From Rhodothermia bacterium (GTDB lineage Bacteria; Bacteroidota; Rhodothermia; Balneolales; Balneolaceae): DNA of 64,000 nucleotides. The DNA lies in the NCBI GenBank assembly GCA_030427885.1, contig JAUICM010000002.1, positions 496,001-560,000 of the forward strand, given 5' to 3'. Shown here in pieces: positions 34,736-39,579 of the stretch. Both the position numbers and the translations under genes were made by a program. Below the pieces are notes generated by a model, which was not told the origin of the DNA, did not search any database, and saw nothing but the letters and a program-made list of their open reading frames with translations. The stretch's first letter is position 1. Each line of letters begins with the position of its first letter.

Positions 34736-35065
34736 TCACTGTTTGATCTCCATTTTTTCGGCGAAGTAATCACAGAAATCCATCATATCTCCGGAAATAC
34801 GCTCATCATTGGTGGAGCGCTTCAAGGTATCTGCCATTGAAACCAGCGTTTGGTGGAAAAAGATCTTCATTTCATCTACGGTCATGTCTTTGGTCCACAG
34901 ATCCAGCTTCAGGGTGTCTTTGTTGTGCGCATCCCAAAGTGAAAGCAACATTGCACGACAATGTGCATGATCTACACCATACATATCATCAGCTTTCCAC
35001 AGAATGTTTTGCGGAATGTTCTTGTCGTCGAGTTCTACCGTAATATTAATGTCTTTTTTCTGCAT
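34736..35065 (-). CDS. gldC: GldC-like gliding motility protein
   Basis: A 109-residue cytosolic protein. The run LKLDLWTKDMTVDEMKIFFH is the hallmark of GldC, followed by QTLVSMADTLKRSTNDERISG and DFCDYFAEKMEI. GldC supports gliding and is found widely in Bacteroidota, including non-gliders. No gldA, gldB or other gld gene is adjacent here. Start at 35065 is the only ATG consistent with the family. Confidence 0.88.
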   Translation of the reverse strand: MQKKDINITVELDDKNIPQNILWKADDMYGVDHAHCRAMLLSLWDAHNKDTLKLDLWTKDMTVDEMKIFFHQTLVSMADTLKRSTNDERISGDMMDFCDYFAEKMEIKQ

Positions 35066-35341
35066 GCAATTCGTTTGATTTGATTCGGCATCAAAGATAA
35101 GGGGATTTGGGTTGTGATGCTTTCTTTACCCTCTTAAAACCACTCCGACGCAGAGCATCGGAGCGAGGTAATCGAAAGGATGTAGAAATTCACCAATGAC
35201 CCCTTCTATATCACAAACCTCTATGATCTTTCCTCTGCATTCATCCCTATCCTCTGTTTATCCGGGGGGCCTCTTTGCTCCCTGCTCTCTATTCTCCCTC
35301 GTTCCGCACGCTCCGCGTCGGAAAGAACATCCTCAGGTAGC
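35066..35341. repeat. Intergenic repeat element, copy A
   Basis: A 276-base gap with no gene. A 21-base core (35147-35167; includes GCATCGGAGCGAG) differs by one base from 38026-38046. A pyrimidine-rich stretch (35237-35285) aligns with 38101-38149. Bases 35297-35319 (CCCTCGTTCCGCACGCTCC) are close to the reverse complement of the core, so the element is bounded by inverted ends. Confidence 0.6.
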
Positions 35342-36487
35342 TTATTTTGCTTCCGTTTGCAGTTTGTTCTCGATCGTCATTTTTAACACATTATACCCGC
35401 TGGCGTCTTTAGTTCCTTCCCGAACATACACCGTCCCTTCTTTATCTATCCCCATTATATTCCAAATAATGGTATTTAATGGTTCATTAGTAATGGGGAT
35501 AGATTTTAGTTTTTTAAAGCCTATGAAATTCCAGTTCTCATCGTATACCTCCAAGCCAAGCACCCGTTCCTCTTCTATATCCCGTAAAATTAGGTGATAA
35601 AAAAACCCATCATATTGAACTAGCCCTCTGCTTCGGCTTTGAACTAGCAACATCATATCACCTCCCGGTACATCCGGGCCTTGTGATCGGATATCGAATT
35701 TTCGACCACGATCATTTTTCAGGATCGTGTAAATTTCATCGGTATGTCCAGCTTCTATCTTGCGGGTTTGTTCATAGGTTTCTATTTCTTTTGAATACGT
35801 ATATTCATAAATAATGCCACTGAAAATAGTGGGTGCAAAATATATGTCGTCATTATGTACTAGAAGGCTTCCGTGTAAAGCACGTATCTCTCCCACTACT
35901 TCTTCAATGCCATCATCAATCTCTTCAATGGTCATGAAGCTGGATTCCAGTTCAAAGTTCTCATCGTATATATGCCCCATTCCTACTTCTTTCAACGGGT
36001 TTGGATTTGCGTGAATTAACACTTGCCCGTGAGTCGTTTTTAGAAAGCGAACAGAAGAATTAATATCTTTCATGTTATAAGTTTCTTTATAACTCCCATC
36101 CAGGCCAAATTCGGTTATCCTCATCTGATAGCGGTCAAAAATAAACACAGAGCCTCTTTGCTCATCCAGTCCAAAACCTTTAATACTGATCAGTTCTCCA
36201 GGTCCCCGGCCCCGGAGCCCAATTTCGGTTAATTTTTTTCCTTGTGTGTCAAACACGCGTACCAGTAATGATGCATCGTCCGCAATATAGATATTACCAT
36301 TCTTATCCACTTCAATATCCCGAATGCTGTAAAAGGAAGCCTCTTCTGAATAAGGCTCTTCAAATTCCATTCTTTCATAGCTTATGACAATTTCCTCATC
36401 GCTCAACATGGGGAGGGGTTTCTCCCGCTGGCAGGCAAGGGTTGCAAGTACCAGGCTCATAGTAACAAACCGAATGACCATTTTCAT
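35342..36487 (-). CDS. 6-bladed beta-propeller lipoprotein
   Basis: A 381-residue lipoprotein (lipobox LATLAC, Cys19) with NHL/6-bladed propeller strands such as RDIEVDKNGNIYIADDAS, GLRGRGPGELISIKGFGL and QRGSVFIFDRYQMRITEF. Such proteins are common in Bacteroidota beside small exported peptides and TlpA-type proteins. It is the last gene of the run that also holds a Cys-rich peptide and a CxxC protein. No enzyme motif was seen; a binding or scaffold role is likely. Confidence 0.82.
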   Translation of the reverse strand: MKMVIRFVTMSLVLATLACQREKPLPMLSDEEIVISYERMEFEEPYSEEASFYSIRDIEVDKNGNIYIADDASLLVRVFDTQGKKLTEIGLRGRGPGELISIKGFGLDEQRGSVFIFDRYQMRITEFGLDGSYKETYNMKDINSSVRFLKTTHGQVLIHANPNPLKEVGMGHIYDENFELESSFMTIEEIDDGIEEVVGEIRALHGSLLVHNDDIYFAPTIFSGIIYEYTYSKEIETYEQTRKIEAGHTDEIYTILKNDRGRKFDIRSQGPDVPGGDMMLLVQSRSRGLVQYDGFFYHLILRDIEEERVLGLEVYDENWNFIGFKKLKSIPITNEPLNTIIWNIMGIDKEGTVYVREGTKDASGYNVLKMTIENKLQTEAK

Positions 36488-36516
36488 TGTATCAAGAATT
36501 GGAGTTGTGTTTAACC

Positions 36517-36545
36517 AAAAAAGAACCGTGTAACACGGCTCTTTT
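36517..36545 (-). terminator. Terminator after the Cys-rich peptide gene
   Basis: Bases 36523-36530 (GAACCGTG) pair with 36534-36541 (CACGGCTC) with one mismatch and a 3-base loop. The minus strand continues into six T (36522-36517). Confidence 0.75.
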
Positions 36546-36569
36546 AATCGTTAGAATTAAGAGTGTGTA

Positions 36570-36773
36570 TTAGCAGGGTGTTCCATCTTCGCAGTGTCCG
36601 TTCACCCACTTGCATCCATATCCAATGGTTACTTCATCACAGGATTCAGTTGGATATGCGCCCGCACAGGTAACACATGGATTAGGATCAAACGCAGAAA
36701 CTACTCCGCTAAGAGAAAATAAAAGAGAGAGTGTAAATAACGATAATGCTAAATATACTTTTAGATTTTTCAT
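36570..36773 (-). CDS. Small exported cysteine-rich peptide
   Basis: A 67-residue peptide. A signal sequence (MKNLKVYLALSLFTLSLLF to about VVSA) is followed by a mature part of about 40 residues with six cysteines: NPCVTC, ESCDE, YGCKW, GHCED and the last residue of GTPC. It resembles in layout the NVEALA peptides found near 6-bladed propeller genes in Bacteroides, but without that motif. It may be a disulfide-bonded secreted effector, signal or bacteriocin-like peptide. The next gene encodes a CxxC protein that could form or reduce its bonds. Its own terminator suggests high expression. Confidence 0.65.
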   Translation of the reverse strand: MKNLKVYLALSLFTLSLLFSLSGVVSAFDPNPCVTCAGAYPTESCDEVTIGYGCKWVNGHCEDGTPC

Positions 36774-36786
36774 AGTACTTTATTAT

Positions 36787-37356
36787 TTAATTATGGTTTA
36801 AGAGTGAGAAAAGAGCTTCATTAACCAGATTTTTCTTAAAGAAAGGTTCTGTGGAATAATTCAAAAGCTTAATTCTGGCTAATACCGCAGAAGTTTCGGC
36901 ATCGTAAAAGAGAATCTGATTGTTTAGTATTTGATTTTTACTCCAGGTTGTTACTTCATCTAGAAAAGCAGCCGAATCTGAAACATGAAGAACCGGGCCT
37001 GCGGGTTTTATGAGTTTTTCAAAGCTACTGGTATTGTCATAATGTGTAATAATCATGGTTCGTACATTCACATCACTTGCTTCCTGATCTGGCATTTCCC
37101 TTAGTATATCGCCATACTCCACGATCTCGTTCAAACAGGTTGTGCAAACCTGATCTTGTGTTAACAAAATCACATAAAACTTTGCACTATCATCTAAAAT
37201 TTCAGGGATTGTCAAATTCCTTTTCGTTAAGTCTAAATAATCCAGCTTTAAACTCTCTTTCAGATCTTCCTTTTCGTTCATAGAACTATAAAAGGTGTAC
37301 CACACTATTGAGATACTTGCCACTATCAAAATGGATACAATTATATTCTTACTCAT
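36787..37356 (-). CDS. Membrane-anchored thioredoxin-like protein with CTTC motif
   Basis: A 189-residue protein with one N-terminal helix (IIVSILIVASISIVWYTFY) and a periplasmic thioredoxin-like domain holding QVCTTCLNE. The CxxC is placed after the first long strand (FYVILLTQD), as in TlpA-like proteins. It lies 13 bases before the Cys-rich peptide start on the same strand, so it may act on that peptide. The rest of the sequence is too diverged for a firmer name. Confidence 0.6.
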   Translation of the reverse strand: MSKNIIVSILIVASISIVWYTFYSSMNEKEDLKESLKLDYLDLTKRNLTIPEILDDSAKFYVILLTQDQVCTTCLNEIVEYGDILREMPDQEASDVNVRTMIITHYDNTSSFEKLIKPAGPVLHVSDSAAFLDEVTTWSKNQILNNQILFYDAETSAVLARIKLLNYSTEPFFKKNLVNEALFSLLNHN

Positions 37357-37444
37357 ATTAACTTTTAGATATTCTTTAACTCTCGTTTAAGGAACTCTAC
37401 ATACTCATGAATATTCCTACCCTTGTTGAAGAATCCAAAAACTT

Positions 37445-37795
37445 CTACCCCCTAATTTTCCCTTTGAATTTTACTCCTGATTTTTCCACCAAGTGGGGGT
37501 GATGTCCGGTGTGGTAACGGATATATTCGTTAAGTTCTCTTTCGCCGCCCAGCCCAAGTTCGATTCCTAATTCAAAGCAACTTATTTCAGGATGCTCTTT
37601 GATAAGCGTATGAAATCTTTCAAGCCTGAGAACAATTAATACTGATTTCGGTGACTTTTTGTAATGTTTCTTAAATACTTCTGAGAACTTCTTTGTGTCT
37701 CCATAGCCCATTTGCTGTCCCCATTCTACCACTGTTCGTATTTGTTGTACGTTTTCTAGAACCACTTCCAGCGCCTTTTCCATTGGTTGTTTCAT
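37445..37795 (-). CDS. AraC-type DNA-binding protein, single domain
   Basis: About 116 residues from ATG 37795 (an upstream ATG at 37831 gives an added hydrophobic piece and is less likely). The helix pair MGYGDTKKFSEVFKKHYKKS matches the second HTH of AraC proteins. A further helical stretch (ISCFELGIELGLGGERELNEY) follows that may be a second HTH. There is no sensor domain. Lying upstream of the CxxC, peptide and propeller genes, it may regulate them. Confidence 0.6.
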   Translation of the reverse strand: MKQPMEKALEVVLENVQQIRTVVEWGQQMGYGDTKKFSEVFKKHYKKSPKSVLIVLRLERFHTLIKEHPEISCFELGIELGLGGERELNEYIRYHTGHHPHLVEKSGVKFKGKIRG

Positions 37796-37831
37796 ATATA
37801 TATATAGGGTTAACATTAAAATACTAACCAC

Positions 37832-38185
37832 CTATTTCAGGCAGCTTTATCAATCTGTTTCAATGTCCTTCCAATAGATGAGCTGTACCCACCCGGGCAA
37901 AACGCCTCTCTATTTTCCATATTCACGATTTAAGAGTTTACGCGCAAGTAATTGTTACACTATAGTTTTTTTTTATTATTTGATTACCCCTCGTTCTGTA
38001 CGTTCCGACCTGCCTGCGGCAAGCAGACGCAGGGCATCGGAGCGAGTTGGAATTGAACACGGATGACCCCGATACCACAGATTGGCATAATCCCTCATTC
38101 GCATTTATCCCTTCCTCCGTGTTATCCGCGTTCCTCTTTACTCTCTGAATCGAAACAAATCCCCTCCTCAATAACTCTCAAGAAA
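37832..38185. repeat. Intergenic repeat element, copy B
   Basis: No gene is seen between the AraC-type gene and arsR. Bases 37988-38007 (CCCTCGTTCTGTACGTTCCG) match 35297-35316 at 17 of 20. The core 38026-38046 matches 35147-35167 at 20 of 21. The segment 38101-38149 aligns with 35237-35285. Parts are in a different order than in copy A. A hairpin CCTGCCTGCGGCAAGCAG region lies between. Confidence 0.6.
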
Positions 38186-38190
38186 AATAA

Positions 38191-38238
38191 TTTGCGCAAC
38201 TGTTTAGTTGCATGTATATTTGCAACCGTTCGATTGCA
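38191..38238 (+). promoter_or_regulatory. arsR promoter between two operator dyads
   Basis: A Bacteroidota-type -33 TTTG (38191-38194) is 20 bases from TATATTTG (38215-38222), a perfect TAnnTTTG -7 box. Dyad 1 GCAACT-GTTT-AGTTGC (38196-38211) is perfect. Dyad 2 TGCAACCGTTCGATTGCA (38221-38238) has one mismatch pair. Centres are 26 bases apart. ArsR binding at either would block RNA polymerase, so autorepression is likely. Confidence 0.6.
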
Positions 38239-38254
38239 TTTAAATACTGATCCT

Positions 38255-38581
38255 ATGAAACGAGACATATTTCAAGCCATAGCTGACCCAACCCGAAGAG
38301 CCATTCTGGTGTTAATTGCTGCACACGCGATGACTCCTAATGCCCTGGCTGAACATTTTGATATCAGCCGGCAGGCCACCTCAAAACATATTCAGATATT
38401 GAATGAATGCGAATTGCTGGAGCAGGAAAAAGATGGCCGGGAGATCTACTACCAACTTAAGATCGAAAAAATGAAGGAGGTTGATGTGTGGTTAGAGCAA
38501 TTCAGAAAAATATGGGAAAGCCGGTACAGCCAGCTGGACGATCTTTTATCAAAATTAAAATCAGAAAACAATGAGCAATGA
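38255..38581 (+). CDS. ArsR family transcription regulator
   Basis: A 108-residue winged helix. Start taken at ATG 38255 just after the operator dyads; an in-frame ATG at 38063 lies inside the repeat element. The family signature is [19 protein letters not shown], then [19 protein letters not shown] and [15 protein letters not shown]. No metal-binding cysteines are seen. Members of this subgroup lie before SRPBCC genes and repress them. Its stop overlaps the first SRPBCC start by 11 bases. Confidence 0.88.
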
Positions 38582-39071
38582 CCTTCTCTTCGACTTCATC
38601 GTCGATAAACAAAACAATACGCTTAGCATAAAGCGAGAATTTGCAGCAAATCGCCAGCTGGTGTGGGATTGCTTTACAAAAAGTGAACTGCTTGCCCAAT
38701 GGTACGCTCCAAAACCACATAAGAACAAGACCAAATCAATGGATTTTCGGGAAGGTGGCCATTGGCATTACGCGATGGTGGATCCGGATGGAAACGAATA
38801 TTGGGGGTACACCAACTATGTGACCATCTCGCCCATCGATGAATATACTGCGCTCGATGGCTTTGCAGATGAACATGGTGAAATCAATAACGACCTGCCC
38901 AAAGCACAATGGGTGGTACGGTTTAAAGATTATGGAGAGCATACCATAGTTGAGACTCAGGTTACTTATCACTCACTGGAAGACATTAAAAAGGTACTCG
39001 ACATGGGAATGGAAGCAGGTATGACCCTGACCTATGAATCACTGGACGAATTATTACCAAGCTTAAAATGA
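38571..39071 (+). CDS. SRPBCC (AHSA1-like) protein 1
   Basis: A 166-residue START/AHSA1-type helix-grip protein: [20 protein letters not shown], [28 protein letters not shown], with a C-terminal long helix. Such proteins bind a hydrophobic ligand or act as chaperone cofactors. It is the first of three tandem paralogues under the ArsR gene. Start overlaps arsR. Confidence 0.85.
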
Positions 39072-39078
39072 GAATACA

Positions 39079-39579
39079 ATGAAAACTTCACTTCTATTTG
39101 ATTTTACTGTCGATAAGAAAAACCACTCTGTTAAGGTAACCCGTGAATTCTCTGCTAACAAAAACCTTGTCTGGAGAACATGGACTGAAGAGGAATTATT
39201 GGATCAGTGGTGGGCACCAAAACCTTATGCTTCCATAACCAAAAGCATGGAATTTAAACCCGGAGGCAGGAGACTTTACAAAATGCAGGGGCCGGAAGGC
39301 GACGAACACTGGTGTTTCGCCCATTATTCTTCCATTGATCCGAAAGATAGCTTTAGTTATAGCGATGGATTTTGTGACAGCGAAGGTAACAAATCTGATT
39401 TCATCGCCGGATCAGACTGGACGGTTAATTTCAGTGAATCAGAAGGAATAACCACGGTGTTTGTTGAGATACAGCACCAGTCTCTGGAGGACCTTGAAAA
39501 GATCATAGAAATGGGCTTCAGAGAAGGATTCACCACCTGCATTGATCAACTTGCGGAACTCGTAAAACAAAACAACTAA
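39079..39579 (+). CDS. SRPBCC (AHSA1-like) protein 2
   Basis: A 166-residue paralogue of the preceding gene: VTREFSANKNLVWRTWTEEE, LLDQWWAPKPYASITKSMEF, GGRRLYKMQGPEGDEHW. Length is the same and spacing is 7 bases. The shared DFTVDKK start shows a recent duplication. Ligand unknown. Confidence 0.85.
   Translation: MKTSLLFDFTVDKKNHSVKVTREFSANKNLVWRTWTEEELLDQWWAPKPYASITKSMEFKPGGRRLYKMQGPEGDEHWCFAHYSSIDPKDSFSYSDGFCDSEGNKSDFIAGSDWTVNFSESEGITTVFVEIQHQSLEDLEKIIEMGFREGFTTCIDQLAELVKQNN

Follow-up and report, generated by a model that had tools for sequence, protein, structure and literature searches.

The 64,000-nucleotide window analyzed here (the whole stretch; Rhodothermia bacterium, assembly GCA_030427885.1, contig JAUICM010000002.1, positions 496,001 to 560,000) carries four minus-strand genes that very likely form one module: an AraC-type regulator, a membrane-anchored CxxC protein, a cysteine-rich peptide and a 6-bladed beta-propeller lipoprotein. 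Our preferred reading, to which we give a probability of about 0.6, is that this compact module is gained or lost as a block and encodes an exported disulfide-rich peptide, its thiol-disulfide maturase and a cognate propeller. The co-occurrence of these gene families, raised in a preliminary description of the DNA made from the sequence alone, was found: the CxxC-peptide-propeller order is present in many genomes, and a small helix-turn-helix (HTH) regulator is recurrent upstream. Animals and plants are well known for dedicated secreted peptides rich in disulfides, of which little has been described in Gram-negative bacteria. If our reading is true, Bacteroidota genomes hold an unannotated reservoir of such peptides, maturases and binding proteins, and the uncharacterised NVEALA and DUF5128 families could be tested for function via one bounded four-gene unit.

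Gene layout and proposed mechanism

All four open reading frames (ORFs) of the preliminary description were present in the order it gave, between 35342 and 37795, and the terminator it assigned to the peptide gene was recovered as a 12-pair hairpin and U-run past the peptide stop. Its span of 35342-37831 held for the genes but not for the right end, where ATG 37795 is a likelier regulator start than GTG 37831. The features of the cassette were as follows.

37445..37795, minus strand: AraC-type (HTH_18) single-domain regulator, about 116 amino acids (aa) (Pfam; start from homologues)
36787..37356, minus strand: membrane-anchored thioredoxin-fold CxxC protein, 189 aa, C71-T-T-C74-L-N-E (AlphaFold2, Foldseek)
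36570..36773, minus strand: cysteine-rich peptide, predicted to be exported, 67 aa (ORF, sequence, relatives)
36517..36545, minus strand: intrinsic terminator in the gap between peptide and propeller (hairpin and U-run)
35342..36487, minus strand: 6-bladed beta-propeller lipoprotein, DUF5128-like, 381 aa, lipobox TLAC (PF17170, lipobox scan)

In the mechanism that we propose, the small AraC-type protein, which has a MarA/SoxS-like layout, would turn on the enzyme and the peptide, while the terminator past the peptide would keep propeller expression lower. The peptide would be exported via Sec and its leader then cut off. The membrane thioredoxin-fold enzyme would dock on the N-terminal CxxC of the peptide and form or reshuffle its three disulfides, and the lipid-anchored propeller would bind the folded peptide as a cognate partner, whether as receptor, carrier or immunity protein. 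In relatives the enzyme and the leader would be kept, and the mature peptide and the propeller would differ. Promoter-like sites inside the cassette showed no excess, with 10 against 8.8 in shuffles.

Recurrence of the cassette

A profile of 11 enzymes hit 21 of 128 genomes in the order, and one of 20 enzymes hit 16 of 394 genomes sampled from the phylum. We then took the 28 cassettes with an enzyme at E<=1e-9 and counted exported ORFs with at least 4 Cys in the 900 bases past the enzyme. A short ORF of this kind was present in 25 of the 28, against 16 of 2800 dinucleotide shuffles. The three cassettes without one showed a frameshift (L080 copy 2), an in-frame stop (L087) and a contig end (L122); handles of this kind denote loci (L), genomes (G) and contigs (C). 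A same-strand propeller lay beyond the peptide in 26/28, and L122 and L123 reach contig ends soon after. In L085 a transposase-like gene, named by eye, displaces the propeller. None of the eight weak, ordinary TlpA-like profile matches (L072-L079) had a peptide or a propeller, and two enzyme matches of another family (L130, L131) had neither. The window enzyme as a single-protein query against genome contigs returned no close relative, and the enzyme of a relative returned two Balneolaceae records (L189 and L190).

In sister loci that lack the CxxC enzyme, a gene beside the small regulator was MauE-like (L148, L149, L160 and L161) or VKOR-like (L151, L153 and L158). Both MauE and VKOR are thiol-redox families, which makes thiol chemistry, and not one particular enzyme, the feature that recurs. 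No Cys-rich exported ORF was found within the short flank of the three VKOR-like loci.

The peptide and its terminator

The window peptide has a hydrophobic leader ending in VVSA before F, with leader and cleavage site judged from sequence by eye, and a predicted mature part of about 40 aa with six Cys, the first pair being CVTC; peptides of relatives agree with it in place and Cys arrangement. It reached no family cut-off in Pfam or NCBIfam, and as sole query it gave weak matches only, most of them interrupted by stops or lying in unrelated frames. Peptides were also compared across relatives, in sets defined by locus content. The Cys count of the mature peptide was even in 24 of 25 enzyme-linked peptides and in 13 of 14 from sister loci without the enzyme (p ~5e-9 for the excess, both sets pooled and near-duplicates removed). 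An N-terminal CxxC, containing one of the first three Cys, was present in 25/25 enzyme-linked peptides vs 2/14 others, the motif having been spotted by eye ahead of counting. This distribution lends support to the disulfide link between enzyme and peptide that the preliminary description had suggested, and it is likely that the module makes a secreted peptide with disulfide bonds, matured by the CxxC protein.

Two tandem mature-peptide copies in a relative differed by 24 synonymous changes at 32 sites and 24 nonsynonymous changes at 127 sites, which is a coding signature; the window peptide has no close homologue usable for this comparison. With this signature and the recurrent gene order, neither the missing co-localisation nor the untranslated peptide that the preliminary description had named as grounds against itself was found.

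The terminator hairpin had a folding energy of -13.9 kcal/mol (z = -3.7), and a simple consensus terminator scan did not list the minus-strand hairpin at 36517..36545. Hairpins of <=-10 kcal/mol before a T-run followed the peptide in 8 of 24 scanned loci, and 11 of the 24 had none.

Diversification, gain and loss

At L080, which has three tandem cassettes, identity was ~95-100% from about -260 up to where the peptide leader ends, dropping to mostly 22-85% over the mature peptide and the propeller. In the variable part the nonsynonymous distance (dN) was below the synonymous distance (dS), at 0.18 against 1.12 in the propeller. We rejected positive selection on the peptide, since dN < dS in the tandem pairs compared, albeit with dS near saturation. 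The pattern at this one locus would fit old peptide-propeller pairs with an enzyme homogenised by recombination. The diversification points to strains competing with or recognising one another, and among possible roles of the peptide we rank competition first, with signalling and redox after.

The surroundings of the window cassette were as follows.

34736..35065, minus strand: gldC, left neighbour outside the cassette (TIGR03515, 140.1 bits vs cut-off 102.15)
35147..35167, no strand given: 21-bp direct repeat, left of the cassette (repeat comparison)
38026..38046, no strand given: 21-bp direct repeat, right of the cassette (repeat comparison)
38063..38581, plus strand: ArsR-like regulator, right neighbour outside the cassette (name assigned from sequence)
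38571-39579: two more genes after the ArsR-like regulator

In two relatives (G001 and G004; L198 and L201) gldC and the arsR-like gene are 146 bp apart with nothing between. These are 2 of 29 other loci; in the remaining 27 no arsR-like gene was seen at this place. With its site empty in these two relatives, the cassette behaves as a unit of gain or loss, though two relatives do not fix the direction. The two 21-bp repeats are near-identical, lie in the same orientation and stand outside the cassette on each side. We considered the repeat as a mobile-element end, but being a short, palindromic and dispersed element, with 7 genome sites at <=2 mismatches, it has no proven part in cassette movement.

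A CxxC cassette in another genome (L097, G047:C122) lies ~3 kb from nth-like and Memo-type genes that also neighbour the window cassette. Cassette type and gap differ between the two, and the nth-like/Memo-type surroundings may be a recurrent insertion region.

A special case of our reading is a bacteriocin-type system, in which the peptide would inhibit close relatives and the propeller would be a trapping immunity protein. The variable mature peptide and propeller of L080 beside its constant enzyme and leader fit such a system, as do the turnover of cassettes with frameshifted, stopped or interrupted copies, the absence of the cassette from its site in relatives, and the GG-leader-like peptide, LanC-like and HlyD-like genes (by eye) that adjoin the L089 cassette. 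However, most loci have no dedicated outer-membrane exporter, dN < dS in the variable part gives no sign of an arms race, and no known bacteriocin family was matched in Pfam or NCBIfam, so that we consider a bacteriocin possible but rather unlikely.

The regulator

The window regulator matched HTH_18 at 40.0 bits (Pfam cut-off 33.6). Its open frame extends back to GTG 37831, giving 116-128 aa by start, and the start is probably ATG 37795 because the homologues in L147 and L148 begin with identical MKQP. Pfam found the HTH and no ligand-binding partner domain, and SoxS and other single-domain AraC proteins also lack one. HTH_18 as sole domain is shared with the MarA/SoxS-like regulators; in contrast to these, the window regulator reaches no NCBIfam cut-off, and the small AraC proteins here are a separate family around peptide cassettes.

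A profile of the small AraC proteins gave 6 short matches in the window's own genome at E<=2.5e-29, the next ones appearing only at E>=6e-13. Five of the six genes adjoin a Cys-rich exported ORF and the sixth (L142) does not. In one region of this genome (L139:2054-3800, C1) genes for a small AraC and a Cys peptide stand together with one that is signal-peptidase-like by eye and one for a single-transmembrane thioredoxin-like protein, with a propeller on the opposite strand. Across the family, the profile search placed small-AraC genes in 45 of 89 genomes, at 71 places. A Cys-rich exported ORF lay <=1.3 kb downstream in 17 of 35 distinct genes, these being 30 loci returned of the 71 places, with flanks of only ~1.5 kb, and five own-genome regions (L143, which repeats L141, was dropped).

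Viewed from the enzyme, a same-strand small HTH gene stood upstream in 9 of 18 strong enzyme loci. Five were of AraC type (L098, which is the window, L082, L086, L087 and L096) and four of GerE/LuxR type (L083, L089, L091 and L092), with GerE confirmed by Pfam in L083 alone and the other three named by eye.

A small AraC-type regulator also stands immediately upstream of a Pvc16_N gene in L171 (G011; Pfam), and the same arrangement was judged by eye in L172 (G075). Pvc16_N belongs to extracellular contractile injection systems. Given these neighbours, the small AraC family may regulate more than peptides.

The regulators bear on a signalling role, in which the peptide would act as a secreted pheromone, with the propeller as receptor and a response by the small regulator. 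Many cassettes are headed by a small DNA-binding regulator, and a single genome holds several divergent peptide-propeller pairs, as expected of such a role. But no cassette gene is an obvious candidate to relay a signal across the inner membrane and the regulator has no sensor domain, which makes signalling unlikely.

The CxxC enzyme

The CxxC protein had no above-cut-off match in Pfam or NCBIfam. An AlphaFold2 model built with 20 homologues showed a single N-terminal helix (residues 2-40) and a thioredoxin fold (pLDDT 84.3), and the top Protein Data Bank matches of this model in Foldseek were TlpA/ResA/StoA-type thiol-disulfide oxidoreductases, with a best E of 2.8e-5. The first active-site Cys was conserved in 20/20 aligned homologues and the second in 18/20.

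The predicted N-terminal membrane helix, thioredoxin fold and CxxC are common to the window enzyme and the TlpA/ResA/StoA-type oxidoreductases, whose active site is usually WCxxC. The cassette enzymes differ from these in the motif CxxC-[LIV]-N-[EN], in their fixed place next to a peptide gene and, for the window enzyme, in lacking an above-cut-off Pfam match.

This likeness also fits a role in redox or metal homeostasis. The CxxC protein would then keep the peptide reduced, as ResA and Sco do with their clients, and the peptide would buffer thiols or carry metal in the periplasm. The nearest folds are ResA/StoA/TlpA, several of which act as reductases; the peptide itself also has a CxxC, and one-Cys enzyme variants exist. 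The nearly strict even Cys number, however, points to paired cysteines, and the large peptide diversity is unlike that of a metal carrier, leaving this role improbable.

The propeller and the points against a maturation module

The window propeller matched PF17170 (DUF5128) at 58.1 bits against a Pfam cut-off of 22.9 (E 1.1e-15), and the lipobox scan found TLAC. Enzyme and propeller distances were correlated among 21 cassettes (r 0.75), a value reached in none of 5000 permutations.

Several results weigh against a module of peptide, maturase and cognate propeller. The enzyme-propeller correlation may reflect plain vertical descent, and common descent of the cassette types may explain part of the CxxC link. 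A crude scan, which passed over some plausible cases, gave no lipobox for 13 of 21 propellers, so lipid anchoring does not hold throughout. The enzyme is missing from 107 of 128 genomes of the order, and 9 of the 18 strong enzyme loci had no small HTH gene on the same strand in the 1.3 kb searched upstream. The enzyme reached no Pfam cut-off, and among 11 members a match of one to AhpC-TSA (E 0.02) was the sole thioredoxin-type match. The enzymes of L095 and L097 lack the second Cys, which fits an oxidase poorly but is compatible with an isomerase; a disulfide isomerase can tolerate keeping the first active-site Cys alone. The AlphaFold2 model of the peptide was poor (pLDDT 62.7) and its disulfide pairing not readable. 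The enzyme's absence from those 107 genomes and the single-protein search of genome contigs without a close match might also be taken for a chance neighbourhood of unrelated genes, which the recurrence of the cassette and its empty site refute almost completely.

Relation to known systems

The window peptide gave no match to the NVEALA profile PF14055 at E<=1, nor did PF14055 match any of 10 aligned peptides or 7 cassette peptides, and the NVEALA motif is missing from the window peptide and its aligned relatives. Three peptides of L128 do match PF14055. NVEALA was above cut-off in 2 of 394 sampled phylum genomes and absent from the window genome. The cassette enzyme profile found the CxxC proteins of NVEALA loci L128 (E 3e-9), L186 (3e-5) and L188 (1e-5); at the NVEALA locus L187 it found no enzyme, and no propeller was found there by profile. 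Signal-peptidase-like genes, named by eye, are present in L186 and L188. The preliminary description was thus right that the peptide lacks the NVEALA motif, and its comparison with NVEALA loci is apt, as related CxxC proteins and propellers occur there. NVEALA loci share with the window cassette a short exported peptide, 6-bladed propellers and a CxxC protein. In contrast, the L128 enzyme has a DUF1573 domain that the window enzyme does not, and a small AraC or GerE regulator leads many cassettes of the window type.

The GG-leader bacteriocins and ribosomally synthesized peptides (RiPPs) of Bacteroidota, TIGR04149 among them, likewise have short diverse peptides next to maturation genes. The cassette peptide differs from them in its Sec-type leader with an AxA-like cleavage site and no double-glycine, and the cassette has no radical SAM, ATP-grasp, LanC or peptidase-ABC gene. 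In L089:5906-11001 (G068) a gene for a GG-leader-like Cys peptide with a weak propeller match and LanC-like and HlyD-like genes adjoin a CxxC cassette (names by eye).

Literature searches, with preprints and most subscription papers outside their scope, found no account of such a cassette and no paper on NVEALA. PMC8939145 and PMC4573289 turned up for BF3164/DUF5128/TIGR04149/NVEALA, and propellers are not mentioned in the accessible parts of either; those of PMC10434189 held nothing helpful on the cassette.

A wider and tentative proposal, with the odds somewhat against it, is that exported disulfide-rich peptides make up one class across the Bacteroidota, with the NVEALA loci as a branch of it. 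The parts would be exchangeable: a small HTH gene would act as the switch, and the thiol-redox maturase would be of one of three types, thioredoxin-fold CxxC, MauE-like or VKOR-like. The peptide would be hypervariable, and its propeller partner would vary along with it. The CxxC enzyme would recognise an N-terminal CxxC handle, the unit would insert as a block, and its use would be strain recognition or warfare.

RND efflux pump genes were seen near L082, L091, L092, L096, L135, L146, L150, L154 and L170, a count without a background rate, and none near the window cassette. Some of them stand directly behind a small AraC gene, and RND pumps are a possible export route for the peptides.
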